From the NCBI RefSeq assembly GCF_004365965.1, contig NZ_SOEB01000019.1, positions 1 to 64,000 of the forward strand: a DNA stretch of 64,000 nt, given 5' to 3'. Positions 1,024 to 4,167 of this stretch are shown one piece after another. This stretch comes from Rhodovulum visakhapatnamense. GTDB lineage: Bacteria > Pseudomonadota > Alphaproteobacteria > Rhodobacterales > Rhodobacteraceae. The translations under genes and the position numbers were made by a program. Position 1 is the first letter of the stretch. Every line of letters begins with the position of its first letter. The notes under the pieces were generated by a model. The model ran no database searches. It worked only from the letters and a program-made list of their open reading frames with translations, and was not told the DNA's origin.

Positions 1024-2535
1024 ATGGTGGCCCGGGCCTATACGGTGGCCTTCGACGGCATCGAGGCACAGATCGTCGAGGTGCAATGCGCGGTCGCCCC
1101 CGGGCTTCCCGCCTTTTCAGTGGTGGGCCTTCCCGACAAGGCGGTCAGCGAAGCCCGCGACCGGCTGCGCGCGGCGCTGGCGGCGATGGGCGTGGCGCTG
1201 CCCTCAAAGCGGATCACGGTCAATCTTTCGCCCGCCGATCTGCCCAAGGTGGGCTCGCATTTCGACCTGCCCATCGCGGTGGCGCTGCTGGCCGCGCTCG
1301 AGGTCATCCCCCGCGACATGGCGGAAGGCGTGGTGGCCCTGGGCGAGCTGTCGCTCGACGGGCGGCTGGTGCCGGTGATCGGGGCGCTGCCCGCGGCGAT
1401 GGCCGCCGCCGAAGCCGACCGGGCGCTTCTATGTCCGCGCGCCTGCGGTGCCGAGGCGGCCTGGGTCGGCGCGACCCAGGTGCTGGCCGCGCCCGACCTC
1501 GCCGCGGTGGTGCGCCATTTCACCGGCCAGGCCCCGCTGGCCCCGGCCGAGCCGGGCGAGGTCCAGCCGGACGCGCCGACACCCGATCTGGCCGAGGTCA
1601 AGGGCCAGGAACGGGCCAAGCGCGCGCTCGAGATCGCCGCGGCGGGCCGGCATCACCTGCTTCTGGTCGGCGAGCCCGGCTCGGGCAAGTCGATGCTGGC
1701 GGCGCGGATCCCCAGCCTTCTGCCGCCGCTGTCGCCGACAGAGGCCCTTGAAACCTCGATGATCCACTCGCTGGCGGGGCTGCTGGACGAGGGCGGCATC
1801 TCGCGCCAGCGCCCGTTTCGCGACCCGCATCACACCGCCTCGGTGGCCGCCATCGTCGGCGGCGGGCGCGGCGCCGGACCGGGCGAGATCAGCCTGGCCC
1901 ATAACGGCGTGCTGTTCATGGACGAGTTTCCCGAATTTCCGCGTCAGGTGCTGGACACGCTGCGCCAGCCGATCGAGACCGGTGAAGTCGTGATCGCCCG
2001 CGCCAATGCCCATACCCGCTATCCCTGCCGTTTTTTGCTGGTCGCGGCGGCCAATCCCTGCAAATGCGGCTATCTCGCCGACCCTTCCCGGGCCTGCGCC
2101 CGGGTGCCGCAATGCGGCGCGGACTATCTTGGCCGGATCTCGGGTCCGTTGATGGACCGGTTCGACCTGCGCGTCGAAGTGCCGCCGGTCGCGTTCCGCG
2201 ACCTGGACCTGCCCGCCTCGGGCGAAAGCTCTGCCGCCGTGGCCGCCCGGGTCGCCGCCGCCCGCGCCCGGCAAACCGCGCGTTTCGAGGCGCATCCCCG
2301 GGTGCGCGTGAATGCCGAGGCCGAGGGCGCGCTGCTCGACCAGATCGCGACGCCCGACGCCGAAGGACGCGCGCTGCTTTTACGGGCGGCAGAGCGGTTC
2401 CGGCTGACCGCGCGCGGCTATCACCGCGTTTTGCGCGTCGCCCGGACCATCGCCGATCTCGACGGCGCCCAGCAGGTTGCGCGGCCCCATGTCGCCGAGG
2501 CCGTCGGCTTCCGCTTGGCCGTCGGCGATAGCTAG
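1024..2535 (+). CDS. comM: YifB/ComM-family magnesium-chelatase-like AAA+ ATPase
   Basis: 503 residues, the usual length for the family. Residues 1-170 form the Lon-protease-like S5 fold that starts ComM proteins. A Mg-chelatase AAA+ domain follows, with Walker A GEPGSGKS at 216-223 and a Walker B region GVLFMDEF. The C-terminal part is the Mg-chelatase helical domain. ComM is a hexameric helicase that drives branch migration during natural transformation; other housekeeping roles in non-competent bacteria are unsettled. The start ATG at 1024 follows GGAGAGCG. No competence genes are nearby. Confidence 0.93.
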   Translation: MVARAYTVAFDGIEAQIVEVQCAVAPGLPAFSVVGLPDKAVSEARDRLRAALAAMGVALPSKRITVNLSPADLPKVGSHFDLPIAVALLAALEVIPRDMAEGVVALGELSLDGRLVPVIGALPAAMAAAEADRALLCPRACGAEAAWVGATQVLAAPDLAAVVRHFTGQAPLAPAEPGEVQPDAPTPDLAEVKGQERAKRALEIAAAGRHHLLLVGEPGSGKSMLAARIPSLLPPLSPTEALETSMIHSLAGLLDEGGISRQRPFRDPHHTASVAAIVGGGRGAGPGEISLAHNGVLFMDEFPEFPRQVLDTLRQPIETGEVVIARANAHTRYPCRFLLVAAANPCKCGYLADPSRACARVPQCGADYLGRISGPLMDRFDLRVEVPPVAFRDLDLPASGESSAAVAARVAAARARQTARFEAHPRVRVNAEAEGALLDQIATPDAEGRALLLRAAERFRLTARGYHRVLRVARTIADLDGAQQVARPHVAEAVGFRLAVGDS

Positions 2536-2633: not shown

Positions 2634-2655
2634 ACATCGAAGGAAGGATGCCACG

Positions 2656-3108
2656 ATGACCGACAGACATGGCCTCATGACCGATACCCCCACTCCGCTG
2701 TCGAGCCGGTTCGGCTGGCCGCTGCTGAGCAATCGCAAACCCGATGTCGAGTTGGGCAAGGTCCGCGATCACCCACTGTCAGACGCGCTGAACCTGCCAT
2801 TGCTGAGCGAGAGCCAGGGGTCGTCGACCGAGCTGATGACCGACATGCCGACCCCGTTTTCAAGCCGGTTCGGCTGGCCGCTGCTCAGCGGGCGCCGCTC
2901 CGACCTCGAGCTGATGACCGACAATCCGACGCCGTTCTCGGCCGCCCTGGGGCTGCCGCTTCTCAGTGCGAGCGAGACCGATACCGGTGCCGCCCCCAAG
3001 ACCGGCGAGGCCCGCAACATGTCCTGGCGCACGGGCCAAGGCTCCGGTTCGGACGGACCGGTCGCGAAATTCATCCGGCAGATCATCACCGGCGAAGTGC
3101 AGAAATGA
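2656..3108 (+). CDS. Small four-repeat protein of unknown function
   Basis: 150 residues; no family recognised. After MTDRHG there are four imperfect repeats of 26-27 residues beginning at L7, L33, L60 and L86. Each carries P-[LF]-S-x-x-[FL]-[GN]-[WL]-P-L-L-S (ending at S25, S51, S78, S104). Repeats 1, 3 and 4 also begin LMTDxPTP. The linkers are polar and charged, so the chain is probably mostly disordered with short hydrophobic patches. The tail (about 110-150) ends in a possible amphipathic helix, VAKFIRQIITGEVQK. No signal peptide or membrane segment. The ATG at 2656 sits nine bases after AGGAAGG. It is alone between comM and the convergent gshB. Multivalent scaffold or multi-core peptide precursor are both possible; neither is shown. 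Confidence 0.75.
   Translation: MTDRHGLMTDTPTPLSSRFGWPLLSNRKPDVELGKVRDHPLSDALNLPLLSESQGSSTELMTDMPTPFSSRFGWPLLSGRRSDLELMTDNPTPFSAALGLPLLSASETDTGAAPKTGEARNMSWRTGQGSGSDGPVAKFIRQIITGEVQK
2674..2967 (+). repeat. In-gene tandem repeat, unit about 78 bases, four copies
   Basis: Copies start at 2674, 2752, 2833 and 2911, so spacing is 78, 81 and 78 bases. Copies 1 and 3 are close at DNA level, sharing AGCCGGTTCGGCTGGCCGCT; copy 2 has diverged most. All copies keep the reading frame, so this is a coding repeat and not an intergenic array. Confidence 0.8.
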
Positions 3109-3114
3109 CTGGCG

Positions 3115-3142
3115 GTCGAAGCGGGCTCAGGCCCGCTTCGAC
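3115..3142. terminator. Bidirectional hairpin between convergent genes
   Basis: An 11-base-pair perfect stem (GTCGAAGCGGG with CCCGCTTCGAC) closes a six-base loop between the repeat protein and gshB, overlapping the last codons of gshB. There is no T-run on either side. Confidence 0.5.
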
Positions 3143-4068
3143 TCGATGGCGTCCCAGATCCGGGCGGCGATGTTCACCTTGTCGAAGCGCTCCAGTTCCT
3201 GGATGCCGGTGGGCGAGGTCACGTTGATCTCGGTCAGATGATCGCCGATCACGTCGATCCCCACGAAAACCTGACCGGCCTCCTTCAGCGTCGGGCCGAT
3301 GGCGGCACAGATCTCCAGATCGCGGGGCGTAAGATCCGCCCGTTCGGCACGGCCCCCCACATGCATGTTCGACCGGGTTTCGCCCTCGGCCGGAACCCGG
3401 TTGATGGCTCCGACCGGCGCGCCGTCGACCAAAATGACGCGCTTGTCGCCCTTGCGAACCGCAGGCAGGAATTTCTGCGCGATCAGCGGCTCGCGGCTCA
3501 TGCCCGAAAAAAGCTCGTGCAGCGAGGCCAGGTTGCGATCGTCGGGGTCGAGCCGGAAGATCCCCGCCCCGCCATTCCCGTAAAGCGGCTTGAGAATGAT
3601 GTCCCCATGCAGGTCCTTGAAGGCACGCAGAGTTGTCAGATCGCGGGCAATCACAGTCGGCGGAATGAGTTCCGGAAAACGAAGGACCAATAGCTTTTCC
3701 GGGAAATTACGCACCCAGAACGGGTCGTTCACGACGAGGGTAGCAGGCGTCAGATGCTCCAGCAGATGCGTGGTGGTGATGTAGCCCATGTCGAAGGGCG
3801 GGTCCTGCCGCAGCCAGACGACATCGTAGGCGCCAAGATCAACCTCCTGCTCGGGCCCCAGAGTGAAATGATCGCCGCGCACCCGGCGGACCTCCAGCGG
3901 CCAGCCCCGCGCCATGACCCGCCCATCGTTCCAGAAAAGCCGGTCTGGGGTATAGTAGAACAGGCTGTGTCCGCGCGCCTGCGCCTCTTCGGCGATCCTG
4001 AACGTGCTGTCCGCGTCGATATTGACGGCCCCGATCGGGTCCATCTGAATGGCAACCTTGAACGGCAT
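3127..4068 (-). CDS. gshB: Glutathione synthetase
   Basis: 313 residues, standard for GshB. It joins gamma-glutamylcysteine and glycine using ATP, the second step of glutathione synthesis in the cytoplasm. The start [11 protein letters not shown] is typical and lies behind AGGGAG. The pre-ATP-grasp domain covers about 1-120; the ATP-grasp fold follows with [15 protein letters not shown] (ATP-binding loop) and [13 protein letters not shown] near the C-terminus (metal and glycine site). An in-frame extension upstream to 4161 lacks these family features and was not used. It precedes yraN and rsmI in reverse order, a common alphaproteobacterial neighbourhood. Confidence 0.95.
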
Positions 4069-4167
4069 CTGGTGCTCCCTCGCCCGGCCTTCCCCGCCGC
4101 TGCCCCTCGCCCGGGCGCCACGGCGCCCGCTCTGGATGGCCGAGCCGCCGGGGATTTGCAACCGCGC

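Follow-up and report, generated by a model that had tools for sequence, protein, structure and literature searches.

Repeat proteins of Rhodovulum, related to proteins encoded with the LH2 genes, as probable antenna accessories

Analyzing a 64,000-nucleotide stretch of Rhodovulum visakhapatnamense DNA (the window), we found that a four-repeat protein encoded near its start (2656..3108, + strand; 150 aa plus stop, ATG start) belongs to group A of a Rhodovulum repeat family. Since the family's relatives are encoded with LH2, this apparently unfolded protein is probably an antenna accessory that would grip a ring-shaped complex several times. We consider it very likely that the family as a whole is linked to the antenna. 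LH2, a textbook pigment-protein complex in which alpha-beta pairs form a ring, has mostly been described with the alpha and beta subunits alone. An earlier note, made from the DNA letters without database searches, had called the protein an orphan of no family. The first part was mistaken, as its own genome holds three further family places and all 16 genomes of the genus match, and the second is superseded, the window protein being one of several genus groups related to puc-linked proteins.

Results

The window gene is flanked by comM and gshB, and the puc genes are not adjacent to it. Upstream lies a gene for a ComM-like Mg-chelatase-type ATPase (1024..2535, + strand; Pfam PF01078), which we take to be ComM, and downstream, in convergent orientation, that for glutathione synthetase (GshB; 3127..4161, − strand; Pfam PF02955/PF02951). 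A probable ribosome-binding site, AGGAAGGA (2641..2648, + strand), is found 7 nt 5' of the ATG, in agreement with the strong site claimed earlier. By eye, a putative inverted repeat, TTTGCAGG...CCTGCAAA, is also present 5' of the gene (2584-2591 / 2627-2634). The window protein has no match among plasmids and phages, and searches of Pfam, NCBIfam, and PDB place it in no family; the best Pfam match, herpes UL56 at E 0.034, fell below the cut-off, and the best PDB match had an E value of 0.76.

The four repeat cores, all on the + strand, are PLSSRFGWPLLS (residues 14-25; 2695..2730), PLSDALNLPLLS (residues 40-51; 2773..2808), PFSSRFGWPLLS (residues 67-78; 2854..2889), and PFSAALGLPLLS (residues 93-104; 2932..2967). 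They share the form P-[LF]-S-...-P-L-L-S and are spaced by 26, 27, and 26 residues. Compared pairwise with BLOSUM62, the four units reach a total score of 283, against a mean of -70 (sd 20) and a maximum of 24 for 2000 shuffles of the protein, each scored in its best register, so the 26-27-residue repeats that had been noticed in these 150 residues are far above chance. AlphaFold2 gives a mean pLDDT of 50.7, which agrees with the suspected disordered chain, and places the longest helix at the C terminus (residues 135-145), where a hydrophobic moment of 0.65 (residues 134-144) bears out the suggestion that this helix is amphipathic. The C-terminal tail (3058..3105, + strand) thus combines a predicted amphipathic helix and a conserved ending, as judged from alignments, AlphaFold2, and the hydrophobic moment. 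An orthologue with five repeats (L008), predicted from its single sequence with no alignment, has a pLDDT of 46.4 and a helix at its C terminus. By these predictions, the window protein is apparently unfolded.

Family genes are present in 16/16 Rhodovulum genomes, with two to four genes each when matched stretches of one gene are merged, and named orthologues occur in Rhodovulum kholense, marinum, bhavnagarense, robiginosum, steppense, imhoffii, and tesquicola. Forty homologues were gathered by motif pattern, meaning that the motif is present in them by choice, and with the window protein they provide 120 units, 111 of them distinct. These pattern-matched units are spaced by 26 residues in 46/79 intervals and by 27 in 23/79 (69/79 together). 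Their core, T-P-[FL]-S-x2-[ML]-[GN]-W-P-L-L-S, is well conserved and the linker, V-E-L-x-T, partly so, with values of 0.72 for L and 0.67 for T at two positions. The Ser of P-x-S, one per core, is found in all 111 distinct units, the collecting pattern having demanded S or V there. The motif on which the earlier reading hung is kept in homologues. Among 18 close orthologue pairs, dN/dS ranges from 0.10 to 0.48 in 17 and the remaining pair is identical; the window gene's own pair (with L110) has a dN/dS of 0.47, the second weakest constraint. Such purifying selection in the sequences points to family ORFs that are both translated and constrained.

Using tail, N terminus, and neighbours, we assigned the genes to groups A to D; the script-made gene calls at the fetched loci, on which some of the neighbours rest, include false and missed ORFs. 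Group A, that of the window protein, is found in 10/16 genomes at varied loci, with a tail ending near FIRQIITGEVQK and three to five repeats, which agrees with the varied copy number thought likely to be informative. Group B is found in 14/16 genomes and has a similar tail; an ending like F[IFLM]R-x-[IV]-x-[TS]GE-x-[QE]K is common to groups A and B and absent from C and D. According to the script gene calls, group B has a 156-179-aa ORF on one side in 12/14 loci (L070 7985-8464, − strand, and equivalents), and the gene on its other side is TetR-like in 11/14. In the window's own genome, Pfam gives no match for the former at E <= 1e-5 and identifies the latter as TetR. An upstream block, located within 200 nt 5' of the start (L070, L112, and 12 more loci), is kept in 14/14 group B genes: GACGCGGCGAAAA-N2-CA[CT]CTTG, then CAT-N2-T about 18 nt on. 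This presumably resembles a heat-shock-type (RpoH) promoter. The leader before the ATG is conserved as well (GAAGCCAA...TTGGTGGA...AGGTGGA) and may be regulatory. Three group B proteins (L078, L087, and L094) carry an extra N-terminal array of ten-residue repeats (such as TNPQVETKTF), which resembles the unit's linker half with the hydrophobic patch missing.

Group C has no tail, and its puc-linked copies start with M-x(1,3)-Y-[IFP]-W-D. Group D mostly has two degenerate units, with four good ones in L099 of genome G005, and adjoins HAD-hydrolase genes in several species and lies near a RuBisCO gene in some. A role as a Rubisco/Calvin-cycle linker, suggested by these neighbours, was dropped because groups A to C are not beside such genes.

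The group C gene is divergent from pucB in 15/16 Rhodovulum genomes, with 384-649 nt between the matched stretches; in the exception, G004, a C-like copy and pucB are on different contigs. At one locus (L100), the divergence from pucB is kept although the gene beyond group C, by script gene calls, differs from ndk. Pfam confirmed pucB and pucA (LHC) and pucC (PUCC) at the locus of the window's own genome, and the puc genes of other genomes were named by pucB similarity search or by eye. A TGT-N12-ACA box, which we take to be the PpsR/CrtJ consensus, lies within 450 nt upstream in 13/14 group C genes, with 15 boxes found compared to 0.9 expected. No such box was seen upstream of groups A and B, where only 0.36 and 0.52 were expected. 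Neither the window gene nor the rest of groups A and B adjoins puc genes.

Outside Rhodovulum, many puc loci encode a protein for which the searched libraries offer no family name and which we label PucX. Its N-terminal domain (MTTIITRLY...), roughly 100 residues long, is followed by a C-terminal tail of repeated motifs. By one pattern, PucX is found downstream of pucBAC in 43/58 puc loci of other genera, some of the PucX-less loci being cut by contig ends, and one more (L186) was added by eye. Among 394 Rhodobacteraceae genomes, 48 have PucX, 56 have pucB, and 46 have both (Fisher 1.3e-47, with genomes treated as independent), and of the 52 PucX places, 46 follow pucB on its strand at a distance of 1.5-3.5 kb. 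Two genomes (G073 and G141) have PucX without pucB, and 10/56 have pucB without PucX, including two of Rhodovulum, the match to pucB being weak in one (G023); PucX is thus not needed for LH2 in general. Searches of Pfam and NCBIfam with three PucX proteins and of PDB with one gave nothing convincing (best Pfam E 0.016, below the cut-off), and one PucX searched against plasmids had no match.

Eleven long PucX proteins of Rhodobacteraceae are 342-353 aa in length and have a period of 25 residues, with MAN[WF]PIPL[IL]SRRKP repeats of the type MANFPIPLISRRKPFTGSIFPRHAR. By pattern, 4/11 have eight units plus a terminal one, which is near the nine units of nonameric LH2, and the other seven have fewer, their units being varied. 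In shorter PucX proteins, the units are less numerous and less uniform (MSRMFWPTPLL is one example). By eye, the fifth repeat of long PucX (such as L175, L183, and L211) is recurrently exceptional (WPF[PH]L[IL]NG...), and this exception suggests a fixed register along the array. In two puc loci of other genera (L208 and L174), the script gene calls give an LH2 alpha with C-terminal extensions of 326 and 136 aa.

A class-wide search with the PucX domain matched 21/385 genomes. Eleven further loci were read, comprising eight of these 21 matches, the PucX loci of G141 and G073, and a G798 locus matched by gamma (see below). The repeat-bearing PucX among them, from families other than Rhodobacteraceae, are in or beside puc genes in 7/7 cases, with genes named by eye, and four loci are without repeats (G751, G073, G798, and G141, where the frame seems broken). 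PucX of other families have motifs of Rhodovulum type, for example NPTPFSSLFKIPLLSKK in G502, where PucX is divergent from pucBAC as group C is; DDPTPLSSRLGMTVL in G731, where it sits among puc genes; and NPAPLSSMFGLQLLS in G652, where it follows pucB and pucA.

The relatedness of the two repeat modules was seen in profile searches. A first profile (A1) matched the window's own genome alone among 295, suggesting a genus-only family, and a wider one (A2) overturned this. Outside the genus, profile A2 had weak matches in 13 genomes of 394, and in two of these the match adjoined pucB; eight of the other 11 were read and looked like chance. When a Rhodovulum profile was run against 5695 ORFs, the top 27 were all PucX (best E 4e-14), and 34 of the 52 labelled PucX ranked within the top 52. 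Against the first set (4741 ORFs, 44 of them PucX), the top 20 were 20/20 PucX, compared to 1/20 with the reversed profile and 0-2/20 with column-shuffled profiles (40 trials). The reciprocal search with a PucX profile found the Rhodovulum family with a best E value of 7e-10 and 34 labelled members in the top 40, against 0 with the reversed profile. Six PucX tails from other families matched the Rhodovulum profile at E 5e-14 to 7e-6, whereas the best of 1200 shuffled tails reached 0.017. The repeat module of Rhodovulum is thus related to that of PucX by reciprocal searches, and some PucX tails, that of G502 for one, have an almost identical motif. However, the N-terminal domain of PucX is absent from Rhodovulum, with 0/16 genomes matching at E <= 0.001 (best 0.054), and hence the Rhodovulum family is related to PucX by the repeat and is not itself PucX.

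Comparison with known LH2 components

In Rhodopseudomonas palustris, the gamma subunit of LH2 has six repeats and runs as an extended ribbon, close to the cytoplasmic side, around six of the nine alpha-beta pairs; the Ser of each repeat ligates a bacteriochlorophyll, and the study reports gamma from no genus other than Rhodopseudomonas (PMC9618040). Like the family described here, gamma is small and repetitive, and a repeat of either contains a single Ser and a single P-L-[IL]; in Rps. palustris, gamma is an extended chain bound to LH2. It differs in having a period of 16 and six repeats (EYKGHSGHPLI), compared to 26-27 residues and three to five repeats of another sequence in Rhodovulum, and for this reason we do not file the window family as a gamma subunit. 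Direct homology to gamma was looked for and not demonstrated: the Rhodovulum and PucX unit profiles had no match to gamma above shuffles, none of the six PucX tails ranked gamma above all of its shuffles (the best placed it second), and profile A1 did not find gamma in PDB. In the opposite direction, a search of 17 genomes with the gamma sequence had the G652 PucX as its best match (E 0.0065). The same protein came first among the 5695 ORFs (E 0.0013); its locus, L235, had entered that set because gamma matched it, after an earlier match to the PucX profile. Five of the top 20 gamma matches among the 5695 ORFs are PucX, compared to 0-3 for 60 shuffled gammas, and a gamma-unit profile has only two PucX in its top 20, with a non-PucX first. 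The gamma ribbon (PDB 7zcu chain S) is the best working model for the Rhodovulum family, and homology is suggestive only.

Other LH2-linked proteins were compared by gene position. PucE is a 14-kDa LH2 component of R. capsulatus. PucX is like PucD and PucE of Rhodobacter in its gene position after pucC; the pucBACDE cluster is named in PMC9231093. A repeat ribbon on LH2 has one experimental precedent, gamma, and the open-access literature searched (mostly titles, with some passages) has no description of the Rhodovulum repeat family or of PucX.

Discussion

Each repeat of about 26 residues consists of an extended polar linker and a short hydrophobic patch (PTP[FL]S-x2-[FM]-x-WPLLS). The unfolded chain would run along the cytoplasmic edge of the alpha-beta ring of the antenna, as the gamma ribbon does on Rps. 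palustris LH2, with about one repeat per alpha-beta subunit. The constant Ser and Trp of each patch would contact the subunits or a bacteriochlorophyll, and the amphipathic helix at the C terminus would anchor the chain end to the membrane. By analogy with gamma, we regard such docking of an extended repeat chain on an antenna ring as having an even chance of being right. The idea of a disordered multivalent scaffold, put forward in the earlier note, is favored by the low pLDDT, the near-constant spacing, and the relatives tied to genes of the LH2 ring, and its docking part goes beyond these observations: we infer the binding to LH2, the ratio of one repeat per subunit, the pigment contact, and a partner shared by the window copy and group C. 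Because the window gene is not near puc, we consider it somewhat doubtful that its product serves LH2 and not another antenna ring, and give this less weight than the docking itself. A wider proposal, in which gamma-type LH2 ribbons are not confined to Rhodopseudomonas and form a broad alphaproteobacterial family of modular repeat number, is tentative and falls somewhat short of an even chance. In this view, the long forms, with eight repeats and a terminal motif, could girdle the whole nine-unit ring, and Rhodovulum would have split the repeats off into several separately controlled isoforms, the window protein included, that girdle part of it.

The strongest rival is that groups A and B, including the window protein, were recruited to another partner, such as the LH1 ring or a stress-related complex, and that group C alone serves LH2. 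The tail common to A and B and absent from C and D would fit this, as would the position of both groups away from puc and the different type of the conserved block upstream of group B; however, groups A, B, and C have repeats alike in kind and spacing, and we think such a recruitment unlikely, if a serious contender.

Less probable still is that the proteins are LH2 assembly factors, with repeats that transiently hold nascent alpha and beta or PucC and remain outside the finished ring. The position of PucX after pucC, or between pucB/pucA and pucC, is compatible with this, and its N-terminal domain fits a working factor better than a purely structural ribbon. On the other hand, the repeat spacing is near-constant and the 11 long PucX differ little in length, which suggests that the partner is a fixed multimer. 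That same near-constant length is left unexplained if the chain is instead a membrane organizer, cross-linking neighbouring LH2 (or LH1) rings and so packing or curving the antenna domain. Multivalency, disorder, the amphipathic C-terminal helix, and the several paralogues per genome would all suit such a role, but the helix is absent from groups C and D, and we rank it a little below assembly. Finally, the suggestion that short peptides are cut from the repeats is not supported, and we consider it very improbable: tandem cores with polar linkers would suit a precursor, yet no leader and no processing, maturation, or export gene was recognized among the ORFs at 1-12 kb of the window (by eye, with the two neighbours by Pfam), the neighbours differ among groups, the linkers are themselves partly conserved, and the related genes are linked to puc and encode an additional N-terminal domain.

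If the preferred reading of these proteins as antenna accessories that grip a ring is true, many LH2 complexes would gain a component, given 46/56 pucB-bearing Rhodobacteraceae and seven genomes of other families, and part of the spectral variety of LH2 might be explained. The family would also offer a natural system for comparing repeat number with ring size, and nameless proteins of phototrophs would acquire a concrete, testable role.
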